In this document: positions 1,765 to 19,409 of the stretch, piece after piece
Numbering within the stretch: position 1 is the first letter of the stretch
Layout of the letters: every line of letters starts with the position of its first letter
IMG/VR virus record: IMGVR_UViG_3300047641_000075
Location: 1-20,241 of that record
Reading direction: 5' to 3' (one strand)
DNA length: 20,241 bases
Origin: a virus
Program-made: the position numbers and the translations under genes
The notes under the pieces: model-generated
The model's input: the letters and a program-made list of their open reading frames with translations, nothing else
Databases searched by the model: none
What the model was told of the DNA's origin: nothing

Positions 1765-1849
1765 TCACACGTATCGCGGTAGGGAAAGCAGCAGGCGGAT
1801 TACCGGCAAAAGAGTCCGCGCACACGACGATTGTTGCGCTTTTTGAAGG

Positions 1850-2237: not shown

Positions 2238-2266
2238 TTGACTCATACGAACATGCGTGCTATACT
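2238..2266 (+). promoter_or_regulatory. Strong sigma70-type promoter of the phage structural operon
   Basis: The -35 box TTGACT (2238-2243, five of six consensus bases) is separated by exactly 17 nt from the -10 box TATACT (2261-2266, five of six). The predicted start is near 2273. It is the best promoter in the window and drives transcription into the terminase genes through a leader of about 165 nt. Confidence 0.75.
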
Positions 2267-2272
2267 TGGTGT

Positions 2273-2418: not shown

Positions 2419-2439
2419 GTCTGCGGAAGGGTGAGGACG

Positions 2440-2772: not shown

Positions 2773-2811
2773 TTGCTCACAGGTTTTCAGTTGAACAAAC
2801 GGGGATGAATC

Positions 2812-3108
2812 ATGACGATGACTGGAACAAAGCTCAGTGATTTTAGTGAAGAACCGAATACCGTCGACTTGGATGCCGAACGACAGCGAGAGCTGAAGAC
2901 TCTTAACAATGTCGAGAAAGAGGTCGAGAAGAGCCTTGCCCAGGGAGACTTGGCTGCTGCTCGGATCATGGTGCAAATTTCACAGAGCCGCCGAAAGCTG
3001 CTCGGATTGGACCGTAAGCCTGAAAAGGCCGATGGAAAGAACGGGGACAAGATGCTCGCCGAGGTGCGGGCGTTCTTTCGAAACGCGGATGGCGATGACG
3101 AGGATTAG
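2812..3108 (+). CDS. Small helical protein, possible terminase small-subunit component
   Basis: This 98-residue protein is predicted almost wholly helical: an acidic start, a charged helix over residues 22-45, a second over 46-63, then RRKLLGLDRKPEK and an acidic end (NADGDDED). The LLGLD-type tail after a helical core resembles the C-terminal part of some phage small terminase subunits. It lacks an N-terminal DNA-binding domain; the preceding gene supplies an HTH. Its end overlaps the start of the large terminase by 14 nt (ATG 3095) or 20 nt (ATG 3089), indicating translational coupling. The function is an inference from position and shape. Confidence 0.6.
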   Translation: MTMTGTKLSDFSEEPNTVDLDAERQRELKTLNNVEKEVEKSLAQGDLAAARIMVQISQSRRKLLGLDRKPEKADGKNGDKMLAEVRAFFRNADGDDED

Positions 3109-4387: not shown

Positions 4388-4391
4388 CATA

Positions 4392-4410
4392 GGGGAGGAA
4401 ACCAATTTTG
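4392..4410 (+). promoter_or_regulatory. Strong SD that fixes a TTG start for the portal gene
   Basis: AGGGGAGGAA-type SD (4391-4400) lies 7 nt before TTG at 4408. No in-frame ATG occurs nearby, so the portal gene starts at TTG with an unusually long SD that may compensate for the weak start codon. Confidence 0.8.
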
Positions 4411-5823
4411 AATCCATTGATCAACACGTCGACCCCGTCTCCGGGAGCAGCGGTTGCAGCGTTGCTGGGGTTGGAGAGCTTTGCGTATTACCACGGTTAC
4501 CCTTACCCGGAGTTTGCCTTTGGGCCTCAGCAGTGGCCGCGAGACAACGGGCCGTTGCCAACTCCGTTGCCCTATGCGCGGATTCTGATTGACGAGGGTG
4601 CCGAGTTTCTGTTTCGGGGCGGCCCACCGAGGTTCACGGCACCTGGCTCGCAAGCCGCGCAGGCTATCATCGACCAAGTGATTCGAGACAACTCACTCGG
4701 CGCACGGTGGCTGTCGCTGGCGCGGTCGGCAGGAAACTGCGGCACGGTTGCCGCGAAGTTCGGCCTGTGGCGGGACGTCCATGGGGCTGAGCGCGTGAAG
4801 GTGTCGTTCTTGACCGCACCAGAGGAGTGCCGGGTATGGACCGATGCCCATGACTACACGCACATAACGATGGCGCGCGTTCAATATCCGTTCCGAGACC
4901 GTAAAACGAACACATGGTCGCTCTTCCGAGAGGAGTGGACAGATGACGAATGGGTTGAGTTTGAGCCGCTGTCCGTTTCGTCGGCTGGCATGCCATTGTC
5001 CTGGCGCGAGGAGCAAGACGATTGCGATCAGTGGCGCATCGCGAAAATCCGAGAGAACCCCTTTGGCGTGATCCCGATCACGTTGATTCGCAATCGACAG
5101 GTTGAGGGATCGCCGCTTGGCGTGGGCGATTGCTGGGGCGTGTTCCGAATCATGGACCGCGTTGCGCTGACGATGCACGGGCAGGATCGCTCCAATCAGC
5201 TTCACTCGGATCCCATTCGCGTGGTGAAGAACGCGGACCTCGAAAACCAGGGGCCGCTTTTGCCAGGAGAGGCGATCTCGGTGCGAAACAGCGACGGCAG
5301 CGGGGTTGCGGCAGATTTTGAGCTTGTAGAGCCGTCAGGCGCGGCCAGGCAGTATGTGCAGGCCTATGTGGAAAAGATGGAAGACCTGCTCTATCGCGCG
5401 GTAGGGATCTCGAAGGTGGACACCGCATCCATTGCCAATCGTGGGAACCTCACGCGGCTGGCGTTCCTAATGACCTACGCGCGCACCATTTCGACAACGG
5501 ATCGCAAGCGGCAGGCTTGGGGCCCGGACGGCCTTGGCATGTTTTTCGGGACGATGCTCTGCGGGCTGAACCGCGCCGGATATGCGGACGCACGCGGGGA
5601 CGTGGGCGACGCGGAAGTGATCGTGCAATGGCCGGACTACTTTGCGCCCACCGATGCCGACCGGAAATCGGTGACAGACAGAACGCTTTCGCAATTGCAG
5701 GCCGGGATGATCGCGCCGCACGCCGCAGCTCTTCGCTTGGCTGCGGCCGAGGGCGTTCCCGCTGCGGATATCGCACGGTTTGCAGACGAGGCAACGAAAT
5801 TTGGATCGCACAAGGAGAAATGA
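4408..5823 (+). CDS. Portal protein (SPP1 gp6-like)
   Basis: This 471-residue protein should form the dodecameric ring at the capsid vertex through which DNA enters and leaves. Length, position directly after the large terminase, and sequence style match the SPP1-type portal family. Supporting segments are a cysteine-containing beta region at about 110-160, ENPFGVIPITLIRN (216-229), a helical stem region RIMDRVALTMHGQDRSNQL (247-265), the later VEKMEDLLYRAVGISK, and a helical C-terminal crown with ADRKSVTDRTLSQLQAG. The scaffold gene follows after 3 nt. Nothing suggests disruption. Confidence 0.88.
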   Translation: MNPLINTSTPSPGAAVAALLGLESFAYYHGYPYPEFAFGPQQWPRDNGPLPTPLPYARILIDEGAEFLFRGGPPRFTAPGSQAAQAIIDQVIRDNSLGARWLSLARSAGNCGTVAAKFGLWRDVHGAERVKVSFLTAPEECRVWTDAHDYTHITMARVQYPFRDRKTNTWSLFREEWTDDEWVEFEPLSVSSAGMPLSWREEQDDCDQWRIAKIRENPFGVIPITLIRNRQVEGSPLGVGDCWGVFRIMDRVALTMHGQDRSNQLHSDPIRVVKNADLENQGPLLPGEAISVRNSDGSGVAADFELVEPSGAARQYVQAYVEKMEDLLYRAVGISKVDTASIANRGNLTRLAFLMTYARTISTTDRKRQAWGPDGLGMFFGTMLCGLNRAGYADARGDVGDAEVIVQWPDYFAPTDADRKSVTDRTLSQLQAGMIAPHAAALRLAAAEGVPAADIARFADEATKFGSHKEK

Positions 5824-5826
5824 CAG

Positions 5827-6318
5827 ATGAAGAACGATGAACAGCAGCAGGCGGGCACTGAGCCTGCCAACGTCCCGGCCGTCGACGGCGACACGAGCAC
5901 ACAGGCTCGAATCGAGAGGCTGACGCGGGAAAACGAGGAGTTCCGACGTCGGGCGGACGAAGAACGTCGCTCGCGCCTCACCGAGGATCAGCAGGTTCGG
6001 GAGGAACGCGACAGCTTGGCGCAGGAGGTGCAGCGTCTTCAGACGCGGGAGATGCAGAGCCGGATTGGCGCGGAGTTCAGGCTGCCGGCCGAGATTGCGC
6101 AGAGGCTCAACGGTGCCACGGAAGAAGAGATGCGCACGGACGCGGAGGCGCTCTCGCGGCATGTGGCGAGGCCGCACGCCGGCACGCCCACCGATCCGGC
6201 CCGCGAGCCGCGGGCGCCGCAGACGATAAAGCGCTCGCAACTGCGCGCCAACCCGGAGTTTGCACGGTCTCCCGAAGTAATGCGGGCGGCTCGGGAAGGA
6301 CGGATAGTGAACGACTGA
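5827..6318 (+). CDS. Capsid scaffold-like protein
   Basis: The 163-residue product is highly charged with a coiled coil over about residues 25-78 (TQARIERLTRENEEFRRRAD and following) and a disordered, proline- and arginine-rich C-terminal part containing short helices (ANPEFARSPEVMRAAREG). It lies between portal and coat genes, where scaffolding proteins are encoded; its composition is like GP20-type phage scaffolds, which direct coat assembly and then leave the prohead. The SD AAGGAGA (5812-5818) inside the end of the portal gene is 8 nt from the ATG, so the two genes are tightly linked. No protease domain is seen. Confidence 0.8.
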   Translation: MKNDEQQQAGTEPANVPAVDGDTSTQARIERLTRENEEFRRRADEERRSRLTEDQQVREERDSLAQEVQRLQTREMQSRIGAEFRLPAEIAQRLNGATEEEMRTDAEALSRHVARPHAGTPTDPAREPRAPQTIKRSQLRANPEFARSPEVMRAAREGRIVND

Positions 6319-6384
6319 CGCACCGCAAACGACTGTTCGTCACGACCAGTGATTGCAAGAGCGGCGACCGCGTGCCGCCTAGAT

Positions 6385-6411
6385 GACGCTAATTTGGTTA
6401 GCGTCTTTTTT
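6385..6411 (+). terminator. Intrinsic terminator directly upstream of the coat gene
   Basis: A perfect 8-bp stem GACGCTAA (6385-6392) / TTAGCGTC (6398-6405) with a TTTGG loop is followed by six T (6406-6411). The coat gene's ATG is 19 nt further on, leaving no room for a promoter after the terminator. It probably attenuates late transcription or, alternatively, protects or defines the 5' end of the coat mRNA. Confidence 0.75.
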
Positions 6412-6430
6412 GCTGCCATAGGAGCAGAAT

Positions 6431-7405
6431 ATGCCTTCGAACGATTTTATCACCACTACGGAAGCTGCCGGATTTATACCGGAAATTTGGCTTGGGGTCG
6501 CCCTCGGGCGCCTTAGGAGCTACTTGACCGTGCAAAGGACGGTCACCATGGACTCGGATCTGGAAACAGGCGCGTTCCAGGTAGGACAGGTGCTGCACCT
6601 GCCGAAGCGTGGCGCGCTCACGGTGAACGACAAGACGCAGAACGCCAACTACACAGTTCAAAACCCGTCGTCGTCCACAATCGACCTCACGCTCGATCAC
6701 CATAAAGAGGTGACATTTGCCGTTGAAAGCCGCACGGTCAGCACGGTGAACCAGGACGTCATCCAGGGATATGTGGAGGACGCGGCAATTGCAATTGCGG
6801 AGCAGATCGACACCGATCTCTTCACGCTCTCGGCAAGCGTTCCGAGTGAGCAATCGATCCCGATCACTGCGGCCGGTGTGCCGTCCACAATTACGGAGGG
6901 AGCAATCCAGTCGGCCCGCAAGATGCTGGTCGACAACAAGGTTCCCGCGCCTCAGCGCAAGTACGGCGTGATCGCGACCAGCCAGACCAACGCGCTGTTG
7001 TCGATCGATCGCTTGGTTCGCTACGACGCGCTTGGAGTCTCGAACGACATCACCAACGCCACGGTCGGCAACGGCGTCCGCACCATGGATGCCAGCATCG
7101 GCCGGCTGTACGGGTTTGAGCTCTGTGAGAGCCAATTGGTGCCGACGTCGGGCTCACCTGCCGTCGCTTCGAATCTGTTCTATGCCCGCGATGCCATGTT
7201 GATGGCCACACGCGCGCTGGAGCTTCCCGATCAACGGTACGGGGTGATGGCCACGGTGATGACCGATCCAGACAGCGGGATCACCATGCGCCTCTTGCAC
7301 AGCTATCAGCACATGGCCGGCGGCCACCTCATAACCCTTGACGTCCTCTACGGCTTCACGCTGATGCGGCCCGAGCATATTGTGAAGGTGGTGACCAGCG
7401 CATAG
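6431..7405 (+). CDS. Major capsid protein, P22 coat-like (HK97 fold)
   Basis: The 324-residue protein has the hallmarks of the P22 gp5-like coat family: an N-terminal FIPEIW segment (15-20) followed by a helical stretch; a beta section with GQVLHLPKRG and VNDKT; then DLTLDHHKEVTFAVESRTVS; and the spine helix YVEDAAIAIAEQIDTDLF (114-131). The C-terminal part has RYGVMATVMTDPDSGITMRL and ends in beta strands. It builds the icosahedral shell. AGGAG (6420-6424) lies 6 nt before the ATG. An intrinsic terminator sits just upstream. Coat genes are the most highly expressed late genes, so a separate control element here is meaningful. Confidence 0.88.
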   Translation: MPSNDFITTTEAAGFIPEIWLGVALGRLRSYLTVQRTVTMDSDLETGAFQVGQVLHLPKRGALTVNDKTQNANYTVQNPSSSTIDLTLDHHKEVTFAVESRTVSTVNQDVIQGYVEDAAIAIAEQIDTDLFTLSASVPSEQSIPITAAGVPSTITEGAIQSARKMLVDNKVPAPQRKYGVIATSQTNALLSIDRLVRYDALGVSNDITNATVGNGVRTMDASIGRLYGFELCESQLVPTSGSPAVASNLFYARDAMLMATRALELPDQRYGVMATVMTDPDSGITMRLLHSYQHMAGGHLITLDVLYGFTLMRPEHIVKVVTSA

Positions 7406-7443
7406 CGGCAATCCGTTCACATTTCCGTGAGCACTCGTAACTA

Positions 7444-7535
7444 AGGGGTGGAAAGCAATCTGGCCTTTGTGTGCAGGTTGTTGACCACCCCTCTGTGTGC
7501 GGCAACGCAGCAATGGAGTGCGAATCAAATAGGGG
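7444..7535 (+). promoter_or_regulatory. Inverted repeat and SD region between coat and connector genes
   Basis: AGGGGTGG (7444-7451) and CCACCCCT (7485-7492) are exact inverted repeats separated by 33 nt. The same CCCCT can pair with the connector SD AGGGG (7531-7535), so the left arm and the SD compete for one partner. This could set translation of the connector relative to the coat protein. There is no T-run, so it is not a terminator, and no good promoter was seen in this 136-bp gap. Confidence 0.35.
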
Positions 7536-7541
7536 ATTATT

Positions 7542-8267
7542 ATGAATGTCGACAGCGATGGGTGGCCGACGGTGGCAGCGGTGCTGGCGAGGACGGCGGT
7601 GTTGGGGGATGCAGTGGAGTTGTCTGCCGCGCAATCGGCAGAAGCGGCAGACATTTTGACAGAGGTGATCACACAGTTCCAATCTCCCGCGCCAACAGGC
7701 ACAGGCCGGCGCTTTACTCCGGTTACGGAAACACGGACGTTCGATGGATCGGGGCTTCCGGAGATGCGGGTGCCAGAAATGGTTCCAGGTGCGCCGTTCA
7801 CAGTCTTTGTGTATGAGACGCCGGTCACCGACGTCGTCCAGCGTGCCGATTACCGCGGGTTGGGCGTCACCGTCCTGGCAAGGCCGTTCTCATGTGCCGG
7901 TTCTGGCTTTTTTGCTCCGGCCCTTGGGGATTTCTCGCCGCAGGCGATTGACGGCGTTTTCCCGGCAGGCAAGCAAAACATTATCGTTTCCGCCACGTGG
8001 GGTTACGCGGCGCAGGTGCCCGCAGACGTCGCCATGGCGGTGGCGGGCGAAGCTGCGGCGAGGGTCATGATAGAGGTCGTCGGCGGCAGCGGCGGTATAC
8101 CATCGGTGCTTCGCAGCCGGACGACCGAAGTGCAACAAGGCAATACGCCGTTGGCGCAGACGACGAGCGCAATCACAGCTTGGCGCTCCATCTACCGTGA
8201 TTGTGTGAGACGGTATCGCGACACAGGGCTGTGGAAGCTGGCTGCGATTGCCGGAAGGATGGTTTGA
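7542..8267 (+). CDS. Head-tail connector/adaptor-like protein
   Basis: This 241-residue protein lies just after the coat gene, where the adaptor that docks beneath the portal is usually encoded. The segment FPAGKQNIIVSATWGYAAQVPADVAMAV (140-167) followed by a helix (AGEAAARVMIEVV) is the usual strand-turn-helix pattern of gp6/gp15-type head-tail connector proteins, in which V-P-x-D/E-V introduces a helix. The N-terminal part contains a possible helical bundle (1-47) and the middle is a beta-rich insertion. Start: AGGGGA 5 nt upstream of ATG. Family level confidence is moderate. Confidence 0.65.
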   Translation: MNVDSDGWPTVAAVLARTAVLGDAVELSAAQSAEAADILTEVITQFQSPAPTGTGRRFTPVTETRTFDGSGLPEMRVPEMVPGAPFTVFVYETPVTDVVQRADYRGLGVTVLARPFSCAGSGFFAPALGDFSPQAIDGVFPAGKQNIIVSATWGYAAQVPADVAMAVAGEAAARVMIEVVGGSGGIPSVLRSRTTEVQQGNTPLAQTTSAITAWRSIYRDCVRRYRDTGLWKLAAIAGRMV

Positions 8268-8273
8268 AATCAG

Positions 8274-8714
8274 ATGGGCTCCTCGTATGCAACGCAAATT
8301 GGTGCGCGGTCGGCCATGCTTCTTTCCGCGTTCCGCCAAAGGCTGGGGGTGACGGTGACGTGGCGGGGTCAAAGCTATGCGGCGCTGGTGGATCTTCCCA
8401 CGAGACGGCAGCTCAAGTACATTTCCGGCGGCACGCCTCAGAACGCCGCCGAGCCGGATGTGCGAACCGTCGAGCTCACGCCGGCTGATTTCGACGGCAG
8501 CGTCCCACAGGAAGGCGACACCGTGACGTTGGACGATGGATCTGGCCCTATGGAGTTTGTCATTGGACGATTTGGGACGACGAGGATGGCCGATATCCCA
8601 CAGGGCTACCATCTTCTTGTGTTCCGGCCTGCCCCTGCCGATTCGGCCACGGAGGCGGCTTCAGGCGAGGCCGGTGCGGGCAAGCGGAAATCGGTGGCAC
8701 CGTTGTTGCCATAA
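8274..8714 (+). CDS. Probable head-closure/stopper-type protein
   Basis: The 146-residue product follows the connector by 6 nt and precedes a tail-terminator candidate. A short N-terminal helix (SAMLLSAFRQRLG) leads into beta strands; PQEGDTVTLDDGSGPMEFVIGRF (about 79-101) has the GD-hydrophobic beta-barrel pattern common in phage head-closure proteins. The C-terminal 25 residues are Ala/Gly/Lys-rich and disordered. The ATG at 8274 has a weak SD (GAAATC); an in-frame ATG at 8316 would remove 14 residues. The role is inferred from position and fold pattern; no specific family was recognised. Confidence 0.5.
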   Translation: MGSSYATQIGARSAMLLSAFRQRLGVTVTWRGQSYAALVDLPTRRQLKYISGGTPQNAAEPDVRTVELTPADFDGSVPQEGDTVTLDDGSGPMEFVIGRFGTTRMADIPQGYHLLVFRPAPADSATEAASGEAGAGKRKSVAPLLP

Positions 8715-8759
8715 AGAACGCACGGGCGTGGACAGTCTGCCGTGTTGGGAGAACGAGCA

Positions 8760-9572
8760 TTGGTTACTAATCTCAGTGTGAAAGTATGCAACTGCGCCGT
8801 CCTGCTCACGTGGGACGGCGTGCCAAACGTCACATATTCTGTGGTGCGCACCGATCCAGGGACGTCGTCTTCAAGGTGCATCGCTTCGGGGCTAGTGCGG
8901 CCGCAGTGGTTGGACACCATTGCCACTGGCCTTGCACCCGGCATGGCCGTTGCCTATGGCGTTACAGTGGATGAAAGCGCCGACCCGCCTGCCACGGCAG
9001 ATGCCGTGTTCGGCACACCGAAAAGGACGTTTTTGCCCACGGTGCAAGCCGCGGTGGCGGCGGTGAGGCAGGCCGTGGCCTTTGTCGCCGTGCCGTCGAT
9101 CAATGCCGGGCTCGCTGCGGAGATGGTGCTGCCGTCGTCGTCCCGCCCCGTCCAGTTTGGCGATTCGTCGGTGGTTACAGGCGACTTGCAGGCCGTTTCC
9201 GAGCCAACGCTATGTGTCCGCTTCGAGTCGTTGTCCATGGTGCCCGTGGGGTCGGGCATATACGACCTGTCGATCGACACGGCAATCGTTGTCCGTCTTC
9301 CCAATGCGGGAGACAGCACTCCCGAGGATTACGAGCTTGTGGGGCTGTCCGTGATAGACGCAATCACGCACACGCTTTCGGGCAAGCTTTTCGCCTTCGT
9401 CGCATCGGCCGATCTCGCAACCGGCAAACCCATGTTGCCTGGCACCGCCGTGCTTCAGGACGCTCACGTGATCTCGGCCCGTCGCGACACCGGCGACACG
9501 GTTTCACTGGGAGGCGCAGCGAGGCTGGTGTCCTGGACACTGATTCACCGGTGCTCGATCTCGCAAGGGTAG
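8760..9572 (+). CDS. FN3-domain protein fused to a tail-terminator/completion-like domain
   Basis: I choose TTG at 8760 because GGGAGA (8747-8752) stands 7 nt before it; the upstream in-frame GTG at 8742 lacks an SD. The product then has 270 residues. Residues 1-75 look like a fibronectin type III domain: VTNLSVKVCNC, a tryptophan in LLTWDG, TYSVVR, then IATGLAPGMAVAYGVTV near the end. A helical linker follows (92-112). Residues 125-265 form a beta-rich domain with VRFESLSMVPVGSGIYDLSIDTAIVVRLPN and HVISARRDTGD, and by gene order (stopper before, tail tube after) should be the tail terminator/completion protein. FN3 domains in tail proteins are usually add-ons for surface adhesion. Confidence 0.55.
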   Translation: MVTNLSVKVCNCAVLLTWDGVPNVTYSVVRTDPGTSSSRCIASGLVRPQWLDTIATGLAPGMAVAYGVTVDESADPPATADAVFGTPKRTFLPTVQAAVAAVRQAVAFVAVPSINAGLAAEMVLPSSSRPVQFGDSSVVTGDLQAVSEPTLCVRFESLSMVPVGSGIYDLSIDTAIVVRLPNAGDSTPEDYELVGLSVIDAITHTLSGKLFAFVASADLATGKPMLPGTAVLQDAHVISARRDTGDTVSLGGAARLVSWTLIHRCSISQG

Positions 9573-9576
9573 CGCC

Positions 9577-9609
9577 GGGCCGTTGCCCCTCACGGGCCCT
9601 TTCGTTTTT
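9577..9609 (+). terminator. Intrinsic terminator before the tail genes
   Basis: GGGCCGT (9577-9583) pairs with ACGGGCCC (9592-9599) with one bulged G, loop TGCCCCTC, followed by TTTCGTTTTT. It begins 5 nt after the preceding stop codon and ends 63 nt before the tail-tube start. Confidence 0.7.
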
Positions 9610-9625
9610 CAAGAGGGTATCTGGA

Positions 9626-9642
9626 TTTCGGCATTGCCGAAA
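9626..9642 (+). promoter_or_regulatory. Perfect hairpin in the tail-tube leader
   Basis: TTTCGGC (9626-9632) and GCCGAAA (9636-9642) form a 7-bp stem with a 3-nt ATT loop, 30 nt before the tail-tube ATG. No T-run follows. It may be an mRNA 5'-end stabiliser, a processing site or a protein-binding site. Confidence 0.45.
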
Positions 9643-9672
9643 CGTAAATTCTTAGTTTGATTGGAAACCAAA

Positions 9673-10617
9673 ATGCCAACTACCACTGTATTTCCCAATG
9701 CCTTGTTTCGGCGCGGATTTTCTGGAACAAGCACGTTTGCTACTAATCTGGCGTCGGGCTACGGCACGGCGTACTCATTTCCATTTCGGGACATCAGCCT
9801 CGATATCACCGAAAATTCGGCATCGCCGATCTTGGCGGATTCATCGTCGATCCCGCACAACCGCGTGCTAGGGTTGACGTTGGGGCAGTTGATGCAAAGC
9901 GGGCCGGTGATGCCGGATCGCGGGTGGGCTGGGTTTCTTACCGATGCTTTTGGCCCACGGACAAACGGGTTTTTACCACCTTTTGGGTTGACCTTAGAAC
10001 CCTCGTCAGGTGACACCTCTGCCACCATTGCCGGTGTTTACTGGCAGAAGAGCGTGCTCGAAGGGCGGTTCAGCCAGCGAGGCGACGAGATGCTGATCGG
10101 GTACCAGGCGCATGCGATCGTGTTGGACCCGGCCAATGTCTCGGCTATTTCGCCGCTCACTGCCGCAGCAGGCACGGGGCTGGCGGGTGCTGGCCTGAGC
10201 TCGTTTGCCGCATGTTCGGTGCTCGTCGGCTCTGCCGCAGCGGACGGCATGCGCTCGTTTCGATTGACCCTTGACAATCGAACCCAGGTTCAGCCGGCGA
10301 TGGCAGATACGACGCACCGGATCTCTGCCGGCGCAACGCCTGGGCCGATTGGCGGCGAATTGGTGCTGACGCAGCTTCGAGGCGCGGCTAGCCCGCTGCC
10401 GTCAATCGATGGGGTGTACGGCATCACGCTGACAATTCCCACTGGCGACGGTTCGCATATCTTGACCCTTGCCCTTTCAGTGGCATACGAAAGCGCCGCG
10501 CAGCGGTACCAGGCGGCAGATTTCAATCAGCAGGCGTACACATACTCGCTCTTTGGCACGTCCACCGGCAACGCGACCAATTCGGCTGGATATCCGTTTG
10601 TGGCAAGCTATGAGTAA
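9673..10617 (+). CDS. Probable major tail tube protein
   Basis: The 314-residue protein starts at ATG with GGAAA 5 nt upstream; the frame extends four codons further to a TTG that overlaps this SD and is unlikely. It is beta-rich, low in cysteine and charged residues, and has a regular alternation of hydrophobic and Ser/Thr/Gly residues (TATIAGVYWQKSVLEGRF; FRLTLDNRTQVQPAM; GVYGITLTIPTGDGSHILTLALSVAYE), like phage tube or coat-type proteins. It follows the tail-terminator candidate and is preceded by its own leader structures, as for an abundant protein. Tail tube is the best guess from order and composition; a minor capsid decoration protein is possible. Confidence 0.5.
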   Translation: MPTTTVFPNALFRRGFSGTSTFATNLASGYGTAYSFPFRDISLDITENSASPILADSSSIPHNRVLGLTLGQLMQSGPVMPDRGWAGFLTDAFGPRTNGFLPPFGLTLEPSSGDTSATIAGVYWQKSVLEGRFSQRGDEMLIGYQAHAIVLDPANVSAISPLTAAAGTGLAGAGLSSFAACSVLVGSAAADGMRSFRLTLDNRTQVQPAMADTTHRISAGATPGPIGGELVLTQLRGAASPLPSIDGVYGITLTIPTGDGSHILTLALSVAYESAAQRYQAADFNQQAYTYSLFGTSTGNATNSAGYPFVASYE

Positions 10618-11689
10618 AGCACGGACGTACAGGGTGAGGCGGCGTGTTCGGATCTACCGGCGCCTTCTCGGAGCAAGAAAGGGGGCAGTTGGCCGAGCTG
10701 CCCTTCCGAAGTGGGAATCGCCCGTGCCGCCCTTGCGCTTCGCTGCTAAAACGGCAGATGGAATTGATGTCAAGCTGCTGCCTGCGGACAAGAATGGGCG
10801 GTCGGTGATGTCAACAGGGACGGCGGAGGAAACCCCTGGCAACGTGCCCGAAGTGCCGGTGCGCCTGACGGGCCTAAGGCAGGCGACGATGGTGGGGACG
10901 GGCACGGTGCGGGCGAACACGCCGTCTTCCCCAACATATCCGCAAACGACCAAAGTCCGACCATCCACGAAAAAAAGCGCCCAGCACCGCGCAGACACGG
11001 TAGATGCAGACACGGATCTGGCAGAGTTGGAGCCGCCAGACACAATGTCCAACAGGGCAAGAGCGGAGGCGGCGGCTGGCTCTGCACATGCAATGGCGAG
11101 CGCCGAACAGCAGCAGGAAGGCAGCGTAGGAGCAGATTTAGACCAGGCGGGCACCGAGAGGTTAGACATAATGTCTGTGCCCACTTACAAGGACGATGAG
11201 GGCGACAGATCACTATTGGAAAATGGCCTGGAGGACGATGATCGTGGGGTGCTGCACACCGATATGCTGAGTGTGCGTGGCATGCGAACCCGGGAACCTG
11301 GCGAGACTCCGCGTGTGAGGAAGAACGCGCGGCGGTACGTCGCGAACCCGAGTGAGGCGGCTGCGCATGTCATGCCGTTTTCCGATGACAATGTCAAACA
11401 GGACGCTGCCCCATTTGCCCATGAGGAAGCGGACGCGAACCAGTCGCAAGGCGAAGACGTGTTCGCAAAGTCGCAGTTCCCACGTTCTCCGACAATGGCG
11501 ACGAGCGACACGGCGCAGATATTGGCCGCGCTTGCGCAAATCCAGGAAATCGTCCGGGAGATATTCTCGGAACTGCACACCAGTGGCCGCACGGTTGGTG
11601 GTGTGCCGAGTTTGGGGCATATTGCCGTTGGCGGCGCGTCAATCAATGAAGCGCTCGGCAAGCGGGCCGGGGATGTGCGGCTGAGGTGA
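10610..11689 (+). CDS. Orphan basic/acidic disordered protein in the tail cluster
   Basis: No family is recognised. The ATG at 10610 overlaps the end of the tail-tube gene by 8 nt; the frame is open further upstream, but that region is inside the tube gene. The 359-residue product has three parts. Residues 1-36 are strikingly arginine/lysine-rich (RTYRVRRRVRIYRRLLGARK). Residues 60-300 are low-complexity, Ala/Glu/Asp/Thr-rich and probably disordered, with a repeat (VDADTDLAELEPPDTMS at 131-147; VGADLDQAGTERLDIMS at 173-189). Residues 300-359 hold a helix (TAQILAALAQIQEIVREIFSE) and a glycine-rich tail. By gene order this slot should hold tail chaperones or a tape measure. It has no hydrophobic segments. 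Confidence 0.7.
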   Translation: MSKARTYRVRRRVRIYRRLLGARKGAVGRAALPKWESPVPPLRFAAKTADGIDVKLLPADKNGRSVMSTGTAEETPGNVPEVPVRLTGLRQATMVGTGTVRANTPSSPTYPQTTKVRPSTKKSAQHRADTVDADTDLAELEPPDTMSNRARAEAAAGSAHAMASAEQQQEGSVGADLDQAGTERLDIMSVPTYKDDEGDRSLLENGLEDDDRGVLHTDMLSVRGMRTREPGETPRVRKNARRYVANPSEAAAHVMPFSDDNVKQDAAPFAHEEADANQSQGEDVFAKSQFPRSPTMATSDTAQILAALAQIQEIVREIFSELHTSGRTVGGVPSLGHIAVGGASINEALGKRAGDVRLR

Positions 11690-11692
11690 ATT

Positions 11693-14041
11693 ATGGATTT
11701 GGTGCCTTATCTATCGTTGTCCACCGATGCGCCCATCAATGTGCGGGGCGTGTTGGCTCAGGCAACTTATGAATTTGCCGAGCAGTTTGGCGAGACGGCG
11801 TGCTTGGTGGGCGCGGTCAACTCCGGGTGCAGGATAGATCCGGCGGCTCGCTTGCTCAGCGGACGGCCGTCACCTGTTTTTGCTGATTTTCCCCTGGCTT
11901 CCGAAGCTGCGGGTCCGGGGCAGTGGACAGGGTCGACCCAGGCGGGAACGAACGCTGCGGCGAGCCCCGGATCGTGGGTACTGGTTGCGGACCCAAACAG
12001 CGGCAAAATGGGCGCGCTGATGGACGATTGCAGCGATCCGGTTTCCTTCACACTTGCGCAGACGCCGCCGGCGGGCGGGAATCCGATTTACGACGGGTAC
12101 GGTTACACGGTGGACATTGTTCGCGGCGACCCTCCTGTATCTGCCTCTCGAACACCTTCGGAGACATATCTCATATGGCATCTCGGTACCGGATGGAAGA
12201 TCGAGGCGCGTTACGGTCAACCGTTTGTCCTCTATCAAGACATCGCGAACAACCCGAACAACCCATCATGGGCCGAGATGCGACGCTCGGACGGGTGGGA
12301 GGACAGCGCGGCGTATCTGAAATCGCGCAACGGCCGTCTTAGCCTCACAGTGCTCTGCTATCCTGCGCGCAACACCATTTCGATCAGCATCGGAGGCAGT
12401 GACATCGATTTGAGCTACACCGCTGCGGCCCTCCCGTTTCCATCGGGGCCGTATATGCTGGAAGGGCGCAATGGCAAGGTCAGGGTGCAATTTTGGACAT
12501 TGGGATATCCCGCAACATGGGCGTACACAAGCAAGATGCGCCGCCTGCCCTACGCACCCCAGAATCCGGCGAGCGGTGTGCAAATATCGCTGTGGCCGGC
12601 ACCGACGAACGCTTCCACGGTTGGACACCGGTTTTTCAACGTCAACCCTCCCGTTTCTCAGCCTTATCCCAATGGCTGTGCCGCCACTGTTTTGGCCGTT
12701 GCGGCCGTTGCTGACGCGACGTATTGGAACTACGTGATCACATGCACGGCACCGGCCACCAATGTGGACGGCAGCTCGCCCTTTTCTCCGGTGCTCGATT
12801 GGGTTTCCGTGAATTTTCCGTCGATATCCTATACCGCGACTTACTCGATGCCGGTCAAAGTGACGCCCGTGCGGGTCGAGCCTCATCTGTTCTTCGACTG
12901 GAACACGCTGACGGGCACGGCGTACTGCGATATAACGCTTGACAACAGCCGGGGCCAAAACTCTTTCTTTTCCGGAATGCGGGCTGGCACATTGACATTG
13001 GGCTGGCAACTGCCCGACGGAAGCGTCGTTTCCTATCCGTATCTGTCCGGATGGTTTGGCGAGACAAACGAGTTCATAAGGGCTGATCCGCAGCGGTTGA
13101 GCCGACACCGGATGTACGACATGACATACCCTCTGCGGGTGAACGCTTGCGGGGAGCTGGGATGGTTCGACGGATGGTGCATTTACGCGGCGATGCGATT
13201 TCTCGCGGAGGCCGGCGGCGTGATGTCCGACCCGACGTCGTTTGACTGGCTTCAGTACGTGCCACAAGGCACCGCCGGCCCGTGTGCAAGTGGGCCGAAC
13301 CCGACTGGCTGCACACATCCGCAAATTCCGTTCACGCCCGGAGTGAGGCCGCGTTGGCAGCCGAACCAGTCGGCGTCGCTCTGGAGCGAGATGGTGCGGA
13401 TTGCCGTTCGCTATCGGCAGGTGCTGGGAGGTGATCAGAACGGCTACTTGCGCACAGGTGCCTATGCCAGCAACACGGGAGTGCCATATCTTGGAAGTTT
13501 GGGCATGGCCATGTCACCAGCGCTGTTTCAGTTTCAAGGAGCAGGGACGTCGACCATTGCGGGGCTGCCGTACCTCAACGAGTTTGACGGGGAGCTGAGA
13601 GCGGTGGTGAGCGTTGCCGACGTCCGGTCGAGTGTGTCGCTTGTCGGGCGAGATCCGCAGGATTGGGGGCCGTTAGCCGTCACCGACAGCGACAATTACA
13701 CCAGCGTGGTTTTAGACCCGACGTCCCCGATCCATCGCGGCTTTCCGTGCGCAATGGTAGATCTTGATCCGACGTTCACAGATACGGCGTTCATGGAGAG
13801 CGCTGCGGCATTGATTTCGCAGCAGTGTGCAATTCCCACTCTGAACGTTGATTTCGGGGCGATTTTCCAGCCGAACCTGTTTCTGCATCAGACGGTGGAC
13901 GTTTTTGATCCGCTCGTGCTCGGCATCGCACCGATCACGTGCCAGGTAATGGGAATCGACGGCGATTTTGGCCTTGACCCGCACACAAAACGGACGGTGT
14001 GCAAATGCCGGATTATGGCGAAGTCCGTGGTGAACTGGTGA
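11693..14041 (+). CDS. Large tail protein, possible distal tail/hub component
   Basis: The 782-residue protein starts 3 nt after the preceding stop codon. It is beta-rich throughout. Residues about 100-285 look like a jelly-roll/lectin-like sandwich (ETYLIWHLGTGWKIEARYG; RNGRLSLTVLCYPARNTISI). The second half has SGMRAGTLTLGWQLPDGSVVSY, WFDGWCIYAAMRFLAEAGG and a C-terminal LGIAPITCQVMGIDGDF segment. There are 16 cysteines, unusually many for a phage structural protein, including CxC near the end (VCKCR). Position between tail-tube and fibre-type genes suggests a distal tail or hub protein, but I recognise no domain that proves it. No tape-measure features (long coiled coils) are present. Confidence 0.6.
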   Translation: MDLVPYLSLSTDAPINVRGVLAQATYEFAEQFGETACLVGAVNSGCRIDPAARLLSGRPSPVFADFPLASEAAGPGQWTGSTQAGTNAAASPGSWVLVADPNSGKMGALMDDCSDPVSFTLAQTPPAGGNPIYDGYGYTVDIVRGDPPVSASRTPSETYLIWHLGTGWKIEARYGQPFVLYQDIANNPNNPSWAEMRRSDGWEDSAAYLKSRNGRLSLTVLCYPARNTISISIGGSDIDLSYTAAALPFPSGPYMLEGRNGKVRVQFWTLGYPATWAYTSKMRRLPYAPQNPASGVQISLWPAPTNASTVGHRFFNVNPPVSQPYPNGCAATVLAVAAVADATYWNYVITCTAPATNVDGSSPFSPVLDWVSVNFPSISYTATYSMPVKVTPVRVEPHLFFDWNTLTGTAYCDITLDNSRGQNSFFSGMRAGTLTLGWQLPDGSVVSYPYLSGWFGETNEFIRADPQRLSRHRMYDMTYPLRVNACGELGWFDGWCIYAAMRFLAEAGGVMSDPTSFDWLQYVPQGTAGPCASGPNPTGCTHPQIPFTPGVRPRWQPNQSASLWSEMVRIAVRYRQVLGGDQNGYLRTGAYASNTGVPYLGSLGMAMSPALFQFQGAGTSTIAGLPYLNEFDGELRAVVSVADVRSSVSLVGRDPQDWGPLAVTDSDNYTSVVLDPTSPIHRGFPCAMVDLDPTFTDTAFMESAAALISQQCAIPTLNVDFGAIFQPNLFLHQTVDVFDPLVLGIAPITCQVMGIDGDFGLDPHTKRTVCKCRIMAKSVVNW

Positions 14042-14044
14042 GCT

Positions 14045-14482
14045 ATGAAAAAATCGGCTGCGGCAACTGGGAGAACAGTGACGGCTTCCTGCACGGTCAC
14101 GGGGACGGCGGCGTGCAACTGGCGGGCAACAACAACGTCCACCGGCGCGGCGCCTTCGGGGTTCGGGTCGATCGCGGACGAGTTTGTGACGGTGCCGGGG
14201 ATCGGAACCGTGGTTGGCGCGCAGGCGCTCGGCTTCGGGCTGACGTTCCTGCCGACGGGAATGGACCATCCCACCAACGGCCAGGCCACCGGCGTTGCGC
14301 TGTACCTGTCCACCAGCGACCCTGCCGATTCGCCGCTCTCGTGGAGCACCGTTATCGGTGGATCGACGGTCAGCGCGCCAACGGGCATAATCCTCGTTCA
14401 GAACTTCGGCGGGGTGCCCGCGCCTCCCAGCGGCACCGGCGCGAACCAGACGTACGGGGGAACGTTCTCGTATTCACGATGA
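14045..14482 (+). CDS. Hypothetical beta-rich tail protein, upstream half of a coupled pair
   Basis: Unknown family, 145 residues. The N-terminus is Lys/Thr/Ala-rich (MKKSAAATGRTVTASCTVTG); the rest is beta-rich (GFGLTFLPTG, ATGVALYLSTSDPADSPLSW, TGIILVQNFG) with a proline/glycine turn near the end. It begins 3 nt after the previous stop codon (GGTGAG-type SD in the gene end) and ends in a TGA that overlaps the next ATG (ATGA). A second frame is also open across this gene, but its translation is Arg/Gly-biased and not protein-like. The G+C content is visibly higher than in the genes before it. It is probably a short tail or receptor-associated protein. Confidence 0.6.
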   Translation: MKKSAAATGRTVTASCTVTGTAACNWRATTTSTGAAPSGFGSIADEFVTVPGIGTVVGAQALGFGLTFLPTGMDHPTNGQATGVALYLSTSDPADSPLSWSTVIGGSTVSAPTGIILVQNFGGVPAPPSGTGANQTYGGTFSYSR

Positions 14483-15411
14483 CACTGACCGTGACGGCGG
14501 CTGAGCACCTCTCGTTCGACGAGCCGGTGTACATGCAGCACCGCGCGACGTACCAAAACCTCGTCACCGGCGTCACCGTCTCATGCGGGCCTGCAAGCTA
14601 CACGTGGTCGGGCTATCCCGGCACGGAGCCGATGCCTGCGAACCTGGACTATTGGCCCAGCTTCACGACCGGACTGTTCGTGGCGTGCAACAACGGGGCC
14701 AGCTCGTCGGCGTCAATGGGGGTGAGCCTGTCGAGCACGGCGGACTTACAGTTTCAGCCTGCGGCGGGGCTTGCGGCGAAACCCTGGCCGCTGGAGTATG
14801 TCGGGGGCACCGTTCCGATCACAGGAACGCCTGTCACGATCAAGAATCTCTTGGTGACGGGCAGCGCAAGCGGCTACAGCCAGAGCGTAGCGCTGCAATA
14901 TTGCAGCACGAACCCCTACCCAGGTGAGTTTGCCGACAGCTACTACAGCGCGTCAGACCCCGGCTTCTTCGGCGCGGGACATTCCACGGTGACGTGGCAG
15001 CCGAAGAACACGCAGGTCTCGGTTGACGAGCAGCTAATCAGCGGCGTCGCCACAAGCCCGATGACGCCGAAGGTCGCGGCATGGCTTGCGGCGACGAACG
15101 CGGCCAACGTGGGCGGCACCGAGGCGCTTGGCGGCCCGCCACAGCCGTTCGTGATGTATGTCGACACTGGCAGCGGGCTTCCTTCCTATGTCATGGGGCT
15201 AGGAATTGTAGGCCCGGCAACGTCCTGGTCTCAGGTGACGCTCGACCCTTACAACCAGACGGAATACCCGAACGTGTCGGGCACGCAGCCCTACGAGTTC
15301 GGCTGCCTCAGCTTCCCGATGGACACGGCACTGGTGAAGGTGGGCTCGGTGACGCTGACCAGGCCAAACCCGAGCAGGGCGGCGGTGACGGTGGGCTGGA
15401 CGCTGGGGTGA
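14479..15411 (+). CDS. Hypothetical beta-rich tail protein, downstream half of a coupled pair
   Basis: Unknown family, 310 residues from the ATG that overlaps the preceding stop codon by four bases. It is beta-rich with many Ser, Thr, Gly, Tyr and Pro residues (GVTVSCGPASYTWSGYPGTE; STVTWQPKNTQVSVDEQL; VKVGSVTLTRPNPSRAAVTV), typical of baseplate or fibre-associated parts. A longer reading of this frame back to 13999 overlaps two other genes and looks non-coding before the ATG at 14479. The arrangement favours translational coupling; a minus-one frameshift joining both proteins is an alternative. The gene is followed by the promoter region of the toxin-antitoxin cassette. Confidence 0.65.
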   Translation: MTLTVTAAEHLSFDEPVYMQHRATYQNLVTGVTVSCGPASYTWSGYPGTEPMPANLDYWPSFTTGLFVACNNGASSSASMGVSLSSTADLQFQPAAGLAAKPWPLEYVGGTVPITGTPVTIKNLLVTGSASGYSQSVALQYCSTNPYPGEFADSYYSASDPGFFGAGHSTVTWQPKNTQVSVDEQLISGVATSPMTPKVAAWLAATNAANVGGTEALGGPPQPFVMYVDTGSGLPSYVMGLGIVGPATSWSQVTLDPYNQTEYPNVSGTQPYEFGCLSFPMDTALVKVGSVTLTRPNPSRAAVTVGWTLG

Positions 15412-15429
15412 GCGAGGGGTTGGATGGAC

Positions 15430-15486
15430 GGGAGTGTTTACCCGCCGCTGGGAGTGTGGTAAACTATTTACGCAGTACGCTAAAAT
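15430..15486 (+). promoter_or_regulatory. Promoter/operator region of the toxin-antitoxin cassette
   Basis: Direct repeats GGGAGTGT occur at 15430-15437 and 15450-15457, exactly two helical turns apart. Inverted GTTTACC (15436-15442) / GGTAAAC (15458-15464) and the short palindrome GTAAA-cta-TTTAC (15459-15471) overlap them. A promoter could be TTTACC with 17 nt to TAAACT (15437-15465), or use TAAAAT at 15481-15486 as the -10. Overlap of dyads and promoter fits autorepression by the antitoxin. Confidence 0.5.
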
Positions 15487-15510
15487 GTTGGTACAAAGCG
15501 AAGAAGCAGG

Positions 15511-15555
15511 CGATGAGGTAAAAAACGTGAGGCTGCGAACGTATGTACCTCATCG
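15511..15555 (+). promoter_or_regulatory. 10-bp inverted repeat in the antitoxin leader
   Basis: CGATGAGGTA (15511-15520) is exactly complementary to TACCTCATCG (15546-15555), with a 25-nt loop that itself contains two ACGT blocks. It lies between the promoter region and the antitoxin start and could be an operator or a leader hairpin that limits translation. Confidence 0.55.
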
Positions 15556-15573
15556 AAGCGGACCGTGGCCACA

Positions 15574-16101
15574 ATGTACAGAGAAGACAAAGCGACACAA
15601 CTTGCGGGATATCTCATCACGAGGGCAGGAGGAAAATGTAATTACACTGTCCTTCTCAAGATGCTGTACGCGTGTGACCGTGCCATGATCGAGACGTGGG
15701 GAATGCCGATCACCTATGATAAATGGGTCTCGATGCATTGCGGCCCGGTTCTTAGCGCCACATATGACCTAATAAAGAGGGCAAACCGAGGGCGAAGCGT
15801 GTGGAGGGACTATATCCGAACCGAGGGCTACAACGTCACGCTGATAACAAATCCAGGTGAGGAAATGCTGTCGGATGCAGAGATTGAAATTGCCAACAAG
15901 GTCTTTTCGGTCATGGGAGGGATGCAGTATGGAGAGGCGATCGAGTTGACGCACCAGAAGTTTCCTGAGTGGACTGACCCAGGCGAGACAAGCGTGCCTA
16001 TTTCTGTTTCGGATATGCTTGGAGCGATGGAGCAAGCGGGCGACGAATATGTCAACGAAGTAGAATCGCACTTTCAAGCTAATGAGTTGTTAGCACCTTA
16101 G
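15574..16101 (+). CDS. Panacea-domain (DUF4065) antitoxin
   Basis: The 175-residue protein matches the Panacea/DUF4065 pattern over its whole length: YREDKATQLAGYLITRAGGK, then LLKMLYACDRAMIETWGMPIT (27-47), the family hallmark HCGPVLSATYDLIK (55-68), LSDAEIEIANKVF (99-111) and ELTHQKFPEW (124-133). Panacea proteins such as PanA and SocA are antitoxins or adaptors that neutralise unrelated toxins. I start at ATG 15574, which places the YREDKATQ segment at the N-terminus as in relatives; GTG at 15565 would add three residues. The next gene begins 6 nt after the stop codon and encodes a MazF/PemK-like protein. The DNA is more A+T-rich than the flanking tail genes, suggesting acquisition as a unit. 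Confidence 0.88.
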   Translation: MYREDKATQLAGYLITRAGGKCNYTVLLKMLYACDRAMIETWGMPITYDKWVSMHCGPVLSATYDLIKRANRGRSVWRDYIRTEGYNVTLITNPGEEMLSDAEIEIANKVFSVMGGMQYGEAIELTHQKFPEWTDPGETSVPISVSDMLGAMEQAGDEYVNEVESHFQANELLAP

Positions 16102-16107
16102 GCGTTT

Positions 16108-16512
16108 GTGTTTATTCAGGCTGGAAGCGTTTTTCTTGCACGGCTGCCGTATGGCTCACCCAAGGACCATTGCTGTATATGCCTTACGGACAATGGCGGC
16201 ATGAGCGACTCTGTATTCGTCGTGCCAATAATGTCACCTACGCCAAAATGTGACCGCACGACTGTTCTCGCGACTGCTGATATTCCAGACTTTCTCAAGT
16301 ACGACTCCTATGTGTCATACACGCATTTAGTTGAGATGGACGTCACTACCCTTTCTACAAAAATCGTCCGTCATTTTTCACCCGTTTCCAAAGAAGTGCT
16401 CAAGCGTGTAATTGATGGCGCTTTTTCCTCACCTTTGACGGCAAGGGGCTATAGACAGTGGTTCAAGGATCGACTTGAAGAAAACGCCAAGGATGACGCC
16501 GGAGCGAAATAG
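16108..16512 (+). CDS. Putative MazF/PemK-like toxin of the Panacea cassette
   Basis: This 134-residue protein starts at GTG, 6 nt after the antitoxin stop codon. The pattern is that of the PemK/MazF SH3-like barrel: GSVFLARLPYGSPKDHCCICL (6-26), VFVVPIMSP (36-44), TTVLATADIP (51-60), then DSYVSYTHLVEMD (66-78) and SKEVLKRVIDGAFSSPL (94-110). MazF-fold toxins are mostly mRNA endonucleases. The typical MazF arginine in the first loop (GxxR-P) is not clear, so activity may differ or another target may apply. A weak AGG SD and the tiny gap imply translational coupling to the antitoxin, which would keep toxin output low. Fold assignment is from pattern only. Confidence 0.6.
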   Translation: MFIQAGSVFLARLPYGSPKDHCCICLTDNGGMSDSVFVVPIMSPTPKCDRTTVLATADIPDFLKYDSYVSYTHLVEMDVTTLSTKIVRHFSPVSKEVLKRVIDGAFSSPLTARGYRQWFKDRLEENAKDDAGAK

Positions 16513-16548
16513 CCTGCCTCCGTGGACGCTAAACATCAATATTGTAAG

Positions 16549-16625
16549 AGCCGACCTGCTCTGGAGCTTCCATCTGAAGCGTCCGGGGCTTTTTTGTTGC
16601 CCAATCCCGCACAGCGGGCCTTTTT
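16549..16625 (+). terminator. Tandem terminator-like hairpins after the toxin gene
   Basis: First hairpin: GGAGCTTC (16563-16570) with GAAGC-G-TCC (16576-16584), enclosed by AGCC/GGCT (16549-16552 with 16587-16590) and followed by T6 (16590-16595). Second: CCCGC-aca-GCGGG (16606-16618), then CC and T5 (16621-16625). They would insulate the cassette but also stand 44 nt before the next tail gene's start. Confidence 0.5.
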
Positions 16626-16640
16626 CTCCCGCAGGTAGTG

Positions 16641-16650
16641 CTTCCGGAAG
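16641..16650. repeat. 10-bp palindrome before the 746-residue tail gene
   Basis: CTTCCGGAAG is a perfect 10-bp palindrome. Its last six bases plus one (GGAAGG, 16646-16651) look like an SD but stand too far (17 nt) from the ATG at 16669; they sit beside a six-codon mini-frame (ATG 16652, MLRAAK) whose stop overlaps that ATG as ATGA. Confidence 0.3.
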
Positions 16651-16668
16651 GATGTTGCGAGCGGCGAA

Positions 16669-18909
16669 ATGATCTATTCTCAGTCACAATCTGAGGTCGC
16701 GGGCCTGCCGGCGGATCTCGGGTGGTACCGGTACTGCCAGGTGACGGCGGCGACGCAGGGGTGCGATGTCTGGTTCGTCGTGTGCGGACGATACTACCTG
16801 CTCACCAACAAAATCGCCGAAGGCATCGGCGGTGATCCGGACACGTACCTGATCGACCTTCAGTTGCAGCAGACTCCGCCTGGCAACGTTGCCGCGCTGG
16901 TTTGCCCGGCGAACGGGATCTTGGCGGCAGTGGACTCGCCGGCGCAACCCGTGACGGTCACAAGCTGGCAGTTCGGCTCTGCGGACGCGTTTATCGCTGC
17001 GACGGTGCCGATCTCCGAGCGCGGCGCGATGGTGCAGTACTCTCCGATGACGTTCGACCAGAGCGACGGCGCGGGGCTTGCGGGCGATTCCGGCGCGTAC
17101 ACCGTGGAAGGCCAGGCGAAATACCTGCTCTACCTGTGGGACGATGGCATTCTGAGGCTCACGCAGCCTGACGGCACGGGAAGCGGATGGAGCACGTTCT
17201 CATGGATCTTGGTGTCGGCGTTGATTGCGGCGGTCAACGCGATGTACCCCTACGCGGCAACAAGCGAATGGGCCGAGGGCGCACTTTGGACGGACGATTC
17301 GGGGAACCCGCTTTCAGACACGACTGTGCGGTCGCTGGACGTGCTCGACTTTGACGAGGAACGGCCAACGGCTAACGTCTATCAGTCGTTCGGCGAGAGC
17401 GTCACAATCGACTATGGGCCGCGCATACGGGTGGTGCGGTACGATCCAGGCGTTTGGGACTACGGCACAAACCGGACGGGCGCGGTGACAACGCCGCTGA
17501 TACAGCTTCGTGTGCGGTGGGCGAGCGTCGTGGAGGGATTGGTACTGCCGTCAAATGCACCCAGTGCGAGCCCTCTCGAGCCAACTGTCGGCGTGAGCAT
17601 GCTGCGGTACATGCTGACCGATCCGGCGCTGCCGGCTGCGCCGTACGACCCCATTTCGGCACCACGACTCGAAAGCACGAGCTGCGATGCGCTTGGTTTC
17701 TATGCAATTCCCGCCGTTTTGCCCTTTGGGGAGTTGTCAGCCTCAGATCCAATGCGGCGTCCGTTGCCATGGATCGATCTTGGTGCCATCGTGCCGTCGC
17801 CATCGACGGACGGACGGGCGACTCACCGGTTCATAATCCAGAACGCCGTCGTCCCGTTTGTGGATTTCATCATGCGGACAGTCTTGGTGGTCGAGCCCGC
17901 CGGTGGGCGATCTGTGGTGACCGGATCGATGGCTGGCAAGGTTTCATTGTGGCCGTCGCTCGACCTTTACGAGGATTGGCCTGCGCAGAATGTCTGGTTC
18001 AAAGGCCAAATGGGCGAAGGTTTGGATGCACTTTCGCTGCAACAGAACGGGCTGGTCGTGGCATTCTGCGCAAGCGCGACCGGCACTGGGCAGACGGAAG
18101 TCTATTATCTGACCCGCACGTATCTACAAGTAGACCCGCAACATCCACCGAACGTCGCCCTTGCGTTTCTCGGCAAGGTGCCCGGCCTTCAGCCCTCGCT
18201 CTTTATAAGCGATTATGCTGGCGACGTCTTCTTGCAATGTGGTGGGCGAGTTTACGCTGTGGATGTTGCGATGGGAACCGTGACTGAATCGGATCGTTAC
18301 GGTGCGCTCGCTGCAGGAGGCGACACGTTCCAGGCGTTTGCTGCGGTTTCCGGGGCGTTGTGGATCGCATCGGAAGTGGATAAGGCAGATGGCTTTGGCG
18401 GCATTTCGCTGGTCTCTTCTGACAATGGATCATCGACAAACAGAGTGACCGTTACGCCGATTTCGGGGCTGACAAACGTCGGCCGCCCCAGGATCTGCTA
18501 CGACCCTTCCACTGCCGTGGCATTGATGTTCTATCTGGAGAGACCGCTGGGATGGACTCCGGGCAATGTCGAGAACCTCCGGGTATTGGTGTCTTACGAT
18601 GGGCTGTCCACCTGGCAAACGGGGAAGTTCAGCGGCGGGACAATCAGTGCGAACGACGGCGTTCTCGATGGCGGTGCGCTGCTTCAAACGACTGCGCCGC
18701 CTCCGGTGGAACTTAGCGGCGGATCAAACTGGCAGCAGTGTGGCGGCGACGATGACTTGATCGACCAGATACCCGAGCAGTGGATATCTGCCTGTGCCGA
18801 AAGCCAGCAGGTGACGGCGAGCTGGTTCGACATATACGGCAAACTCTGCGTCAAGACATGGGCAGGGCCGAACCAGGCGACAAACGTGGTGGATGGTGGA
18901 ACATTATGA
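16669..18909 (+). CDS. Large tail/receptor-binding protein with Asp-box-like motifs
   Basis: The 746-residue product is beta-rich. The first 400 residues (for example DVWFVVCGRYYLLTNKIAEG and QAKYLLYLWDDGILRLTQPDG) resemble tail or baseplate sheets without a recognised family. From about 440 to 655 the sequence looks like a beta-propeller: repeated four-strand blocks (GLDALSLQQNGLVVAFCAS, SLFISDYAGDVFLQCGGRVY, TFQAFAAVSGALWIASE), with Asp-box-like SSDNGSST (583-590) and VSYDGLSTW (641-649). Asp boxes occur in sialidases and other glycan-binding propellers; catalytic arginine triads were not identified, so binding is more likely than hydrolysis. The stop codon overlaps the next ATG (ATGA). SD before ATG 16669 is weak. 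Confidence 0.6.
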   Translation: MIYSQSQSEVAGLPADLGWYRYCQVTAATQGCDVWFVVCGRYYLLTNKIAEGIGGDPDTYLIDLQLQQTPPGNVAALVCPANGILAAVDSPAQPVTVTSWQFGSADAFIAATVPISERGAMVQYSPMTFDQSDGAGLAGDSGAYTVEGQAKYLLYLWDDGILRLTQPDGTGSGWSTFSWILVSALIAAVNAMYPYAATSEWAEGALWTDDSGNPLSDTTVRSLDVLDFDEERPTANVYQSFGESVTIDYGPRIRVVRYDPGVWDYGTNRTGAVTTPLIQLRVRWASVVEGLVLPSNAPSASPLEPTVGVSMLRYMLTDPALPAAPYDPISAPRLESTSCDALGFYAIPAVLPFGELSASDPMRRPLPWIDLGAIVPSPSTDGRATHRFIIQNAVVPFVDFIMRTVLVVEPAGGRSVVTGSMAGKVSLWPSLDLYEDWPAQNVWFKGQMGEGLDALSLQQNGLVVAFCASATGTGQTEVYYLTRTYLQVDPQHPPNVALAFLGKVPGLQPSLFISDYAGDVFLQCGGRVYAVDVAMGTVTESDRYGALAAGGDTFQAFAAVSGALWIASEVDKADGFGGISLVSSDNGSSTNRVTVTPISGLTNVGRPRICYDPSTAVALMFYLERPLGWTPGNVENLRVLVSYDGLSTWQTGKFSGGTISANDGVLDGGALLQTTAPPPVELSGGSNWQQCGGDDDLIDQIPEQWISACAESQQVTASWFDIYGKLCVKTWAGPNQATNVVDGGTL

Positions 18910-19409
18910 CGTTGGCGACAATACAGATTAGGCGGGGCGCGTACGCGAATCTGCCGGTTTTGGCCGATGGCGAGATTGGCTTTACCGAGGACAAGGCGGC
19001 CCTCTGGATTGGCAGCGCTGCGGCCGGAGCGAACGTGAAGGTAACAGCGCGCTGGGCCGGGCCCTACTCGCCGTCGTCGGTGTACGATCCATACGACTTG
19101 GTGACGTATGCAGGCGGACTGTATATATGCGTCGTTACAAGCTCCGGCAACGTTCCGACCAACGGGGCCTGCTGGGCAGTGCTCGCGCCGCCGCTCGCCG
19201 GCTTGCTGCGCCGGCAGAAGGACTGTTTCGCAGTGTCGGGTGACGCCTACACGCTCTCGCAGACACCGAACGGGGTGCTCACGGACATCTATTTCGACGG
19301 GGTGCTACAGGCTGACAGCACGTACACCTATACGGGCTCGGCGCTGACCATAGCAGGAACGGTCAACCTTGCGCTGGTGAGCCAGATCTGCTTTGCCTAC
19401 ACGTGGTAG
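18906..19409 (+). CDS. Short tail protein with an Mtd-N-like start and carbohydrate-binding-like module
   Basis: The 167-residue protein starts at the ATG overlapping the preceding stop codon. Residues 5-36 (TIQIRRGAYANLPVLADGEIG, then FTEDKAALWIG) fit the short N-terminal repeat of major tropism determinant-like and many other phage fibre proteins, which attaches them to the tail. Residues 50-93 (W-x-Y-xxxx-VYDPYDLVTYAGGLYICVVTSS and W90) have the spacing of aromatic residues seen in CBM5/12-like chitin- or glycan-binding modules. A third beta segment follows to the end. It probably helps recognise the host surface. No diversity-generating retroelement (reverse transcriptase or template repeat) is seen in this window. 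Confidence 0.7.
   Translation: MTLATIQIRRGAYANLPVLADGEIGFTEDKAALWIGSAAAGANVKVTARWAGPYSPSSVYDPYDLVTYAGGLYICVVTSSGNVPTNGACWAVLAPPLAGLLRRQKDCFAVSGDAYTLSQTPNGVLTDIYFDGVLQADSTYTYTGSALTIAGTVNLALVSQICFAYTW

Follow-up and report, generated by a model that had tools for sequence, protein, structure and literature searches.

What are two small, comparatively A+T-rich genes doing among the late genes of a provirus, between genes presumed to encode its tail? The window, by which we mean the whole stretch of DNA analysed here, corresponds to a virus record 20,241 bases long and represents a provirus fragment. The first-pass annotation of this stretch had recognised a complete Panacea gene followed 6 nt on by a gene for a 134-residue protein, and we find both open reading frames confirmed to the base. 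The two genes and the candidate signals that flank them are as follows.

15574 to 16101, plus strand: panA, putative standalone Panacea (SocA-like) antitoxin of 175 aa, ATG start placed by alignment of homologues; PF13274 (E 7e-18) and phrog_1281 (E 3e-19)
16108 to 16512, plus strand: panT, putative PemK/MazF-like toxin of the phrog_19071 family, 134 aa, GTG start; phrog_19071 (E 7e-8) and profile alignment to PF02452 proteins
15511 to 15555, no strand assigned: 10-nt perfect inverted repeat upstream of panA (arms 15511-15520 and 15546-15555), candidate operator or leader hairpin; 53 of 20,000 mononucleotide shuffles have one
15436 to 15464, no strand assigned: 7-nt inverted repeat GTTTACC/GGTAAAC from a dyad scan, weak candidate operator
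16516 to 16595, plus strand: stem (16516-16589) followed by T6, terminator-like (z -1.5)
16606 to 16625, plus strand: second terminator-like hairpin, 5-bp, with T5 (1 found, 1.0 expected by chance)

It is probable that the virus is an integrated prophage. At the left end of the window (positions 1-1656, minus strand) lie bacterial genes encoding a cation-efflux protein and a BlaI-type repressor, and a second contig (L135), identical over window positions 1-14306, extends to the left with further bacterial-looking genes. Across window positions 1-1656 and positions 1-3570 of that contig, the bacterial genes left of the phage genes also include an aldo/keto-reductase-like gene and one for a large surface-type protein. 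The junction between provirus and host probably lies near 2.0-2.5 kb, where G+C falls to 0.46, and terminase, portal and major capsid genes are found from about 2.9 kb onward. The genes between the capsid gene and an Mtd_N-type fibre gene at 18867 match no family and are taken as tail genes because of their order and length. The protein encoded at positions 18867-19406, close to the record's end, has an Mtd_N domain (PF18454, E 4e-7), resembling the N-terminus of a major tropism determinant. This virus is sparsely represented in databases; within positions 11693-18909 neither the two large late genes (of 782 and 746 aa) nor the genes next to them have a Pfam or PHROGs match or a relative in the phage collection.

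The full-length Panacea (DUF4065) protein reported earlier is borne out by a PF13274 match of 66 bits, far over the curated cut-off of 25.7, and a domain search of PanA gave no second domain. PanA thus carries the domain by which PanAT loci are defined, and the 6 nt between panA and panT compare with the at most 100 nt allowed for such loci. Because its homologues begin there, we keep the start of panA at the ATG at 15574, as first annotated, and not at the GTG at 15565. The NCBIfam SocA model reached 13.7 of the 190 bits required in the window; this match and one to the NCBIfam CbbX model were dropped, as both fell far under the model cut-offs. PADLOC models cover neither PanA nor PanT, and PanT had no match among Pfam, NCBIfam and PADLOC models, while sequence searches of the PDB returned chance-level matches only (CbbX, E 0.6; 9iz3, E 1.6). 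A PHROGs search identifies PanT as a remote member of phrog_19071, a family of ~135-residue proteins whose genes lie immediately 3' of those of a single Panacea clade; each of the 27 partner proteins scanned matches it. The GTG start of panT at 16108 agrees with L084, L086 and other short members of the family. When viral contigs were scanned with the window PanA and PanT as single proteins, no close relative turned up, and a first scan with a partner alignment confirmed no locus, probably because the confirming sequence was the divergent window protein.

Do the two genes belong together? One could regard panA and panT as ordinary neighbours in a tail operon that form no functional pair, given that the cassette sits between two presumed tail genes on the same strand (the upstream open reading frame ends at 15411, the next starts at 16669) and that no promoter consensus was seen upstream of it. 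We consider this extremely improbable, since the pair turns up again in many settings, on plasmids and chromosomes as well as in unrelated phages. When it was sought at other loci, as the first-pass annotation had suggested, a homologous protein of ~135 aa was encoded directly downstream in 10 of 11 annotated phage and plasmid loci with a related PanA. An alignment-based PanA scan of viral contigs returned 77 loci, 73 with a partner, two with a broken partner and two with none; many of these loci are near-identical, and the non-redundant set comprises 68 distinct pairs. The linkage holds equally from the partner side, PanA being immediately upstream in 20/20 genome contigs and in all eight loci that a partner search found in 754 alpha- and gammaproteobacterial genomes. 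When 30 Panacea loci of Pseudomonas were compared, the partner was present in 9/9 of this PanA clade (assigned by E below 1e-60) and in 0/21 of the others. Spacing is mostly -4 to +27 nt in 113 pairs from diverse hosts. Likewise, the PanA and PanT trees are coupled: pairwise identities of the two proteins correlate with r 0.82, a value reached in 0 of 2000 permutations. The cassette is also richer in A+T than the flanking tail genes, as the first-pass annotation had noted, with a G+C of 0.507 for PanA (counted from 15565) and 0.484 for PanT against 0.596 for the window, and a third-position G+C of 0.58 and 0.50, respectively, against about 0.7-0.8 for phage genes. Chance neighbourhood is rejected on the linkage tests and contradicted by recurrence outside tail clusters. 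The partner family is rare and patchy (3/369 and 5/385 genomes), as expected of a mobile module, and the phrog_19071 toxin travels with one Panacea clade despite the general promiscuity of the Panacea domain. At five loci (L007, L042, L043, L070 and L077) PanA is intact and the partner is missing or broken, making these PanA proteins possible orphan antitoxins; in one of them, Escherichia phage PhiR5_2 (L007), this PanA adjoins ibrA/ibrB.

The family very probably has an experimental anchor. The PanAT pair of Pseudomonas moraviensis LMG 24280 was validated as toxic and neutralised, and specifically inhibits protein synthesis (Kurata et al. 2022, PMC8832971); its PanT has no CDD hit and was found to be MazF/PemK-like by HHpred, and the N-terminus of its PanA was restored as MIFSEQKVAQ (PMC8832971). 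We find MIFSEQKVAQ in Pseudomonas phage Sirocco together with a phrog_19071 partner, and IFSEQKVAQ in 4 of the 30 Pseudomonas Panacea loci, all four with a phrog_19071 partner. The P. moraviensis pair is therefore taken as a family member, very probably correctly, as judged from the PanA N-terminus, genus and partner rather than from the toxin sequence. The toxin-antitoxin pairing proposed at first is well supported, by linkage in both directions, by a constant gene order, by coupled trees and by the very probable presence of a validated pair in the family; that observation and its interpretation were essentially right. From its sequence, the window pair most likely belongs, as a very divergent representative, to a Panacea system that is already described and probably validated, and does not constitute a new kind.

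Is PanT, then, a relative of MazF, as its PemK-like pattern had suggested? The PF02452 model matches none of 27 family members. In a profile-profile comparison of 57 partner sequences with 22 genuine PF02452 proteins, the two profiles are co-linear over 92 columns, i.e. the whole domain (score 29.6, P 1.2e-4, probability 55%); none of 200 column-shuffled controls reaches this score (best 22.6), and the reversed profile scores 11. Because the alignment spans the whole domain and no shuffle attains its score, a PemK/MazF-like relation is supported for the PanT family at the level of profiles. The alignment pairs the MazF strand 'RPxxVxS' with 'HLHxVxxDP' of the family, and 'PITS' with 'NISS'. 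Arg25 and Thr48 (Bacillus subtilis MazF numbering) are essential for cleavage (PMC10893535). In a register unsure by one residue, the place of the catalytic Arg is taken by an invariant His (67/67 family members), and that of the Thr by Ser or Thr in the family and by Met in the window toxin. The missing first-loop Arg pointed out in the first-pass annotation is indeed absent from the window PanT, but this is a property of the family and not peculiar to the window member. PanT might accordingly have a MazF-type fold with another target or chemistry, for example as a non-RNase inhibitor. CcdB shares the MazF-type fold and acts on gyrase. The family-wide replacement of the catalytic Arg by His and the Met at the Thr position in the window fit such a reading, which we nevertheless think unlikely, in that the P. 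moraviensis toxin, very probably of the same family, specifically inhibits protein synthesis (PMC8832971). A low chance may likewise be given to the proposal that the active site of this PemK-like, Panacea-linked family is built differently from that of MazF, on the invariant His21, Asp49 and, mostly, Cys52/His59, with the window toxin shifted further; its lack of Cys52 and His59 would then entail a different target or chemistry. Either way, the chemistry of the family cannot be read off MazF, the conservation pattern offers testable residues, and this residue pattern unlike that of MazF is where the remaining interest of the pair lies.

How far has the window pair departed from its relatives? 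It is ~29-33% identical to those of Pseudomonas. The toxin has Thr instead of Cys52 and Ile instead of His59, each kept by 65/67 relatives, and Met at position 42, which is Ser, Thr or Cys in 64/67; given these substitutions, its activity is not assured. The window PanT is moreover one of the two longest tips in the PanT tree, with 4.62 changes per column against a median of 0.41. These features, together with the five loci where PanA lacks a working partner gene, would suit a decayed module, in which PanT is inactive and PanA is kept for other ends, such as neutralising a PanT encoded by the host or by a competing element. We regard decay as quite improbable, since the panT frame is complete and the toxin retains H21, S43, D49, S67 and Y71. 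The window PanA too sits on a long tip (1.71; median 0.18), so divergence affected the two genes jointly and not just the toxin. In the PanT tree the window member joins the alphaproteobacterial L146 (G680) with support 98/92, and in the PanA tree it groups weakly with L014 and L141; this disagreement could reflect an old partner exchange within the clade or a long-branch error.

A further question is whether the cassette is an autonomous moron, as first proposed. Its position in the late region, its base composition, the upstream dyad and the downstream hairpins fit this view, but neither an empty site nor a promoter consensus was found. The dyads upstream and the terminator-like hairpins downstream are all present as described, but the hairpins are individually weak and no single downstream terminator is significant; the T6 stem, together with the second hairpin, may shield the cassette from transcription of the tail genes. 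A search for the empty insertion site through the flanking genes retrieved no relative except the second contig of the same virus, which ends at window position 14306, before the cassette. In the 46-kb record of a relative whose capsid is 64% identical, no Panacea gene is present, but the tail genes there cannot be aligned. The cassette is most likely a type II toxin-antitoxin moron.

Taken as a whole, we think it very likely that the locus is such a moron in the late region of the provirus, made up of a PemK/MazF-like phrog_19071 toxin and a directly binding Panacea antitoxin. By analogy with the P. moraviensis pair, the predicted effect of PanT is a block of protein synthesis, probably through RNA cleavage. 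PanA, as a standalone Panacea antitoxin, would bind its own toxin directly; the operon would yield the antitoxin first, and PanA would keep the toxin silent. Loss of the cassette, or a disturbance of PanA during infection, would free the toxin, and the pair might contribute to prophage maintenance or to the exclusion of other phages.

Compared with known systems, the window pair shares with SocAB of Caulobacter the SocA/Panacea-type antitoxin domain (PF13274), whereas the partner protein differs. As in MazEF and PemIK, the antitoxin gene comes first and the profiles align co-linearly over the whole toxin domain; unlike in those systems, the toxin family has no PF02452 match and an invariant His for the catalytic Arg, and a Panacea protein replaces MazE/PemI. 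Both window proteins are members of PHROGs families (phrog_1281 and phrog_19071) whose entries carry no function. Standalone Panacea antitoxins neutralise directly, and Panacea has been proposed to sense an activating cue (PMC10440598). The closest parallel is PanAT of P. moraviensis, which likewise combines a standalone Panacea antitoxin with a small toxin that is MazF/PemK-like by profile methods, whereas the window toxin lacks Cys52 and His59 and the window pair is known from its sequence. The locus extends phrog_19071, a toxin family with no name of its own but very probably with an experimental anchor, by a phage-borne and very divergent member.
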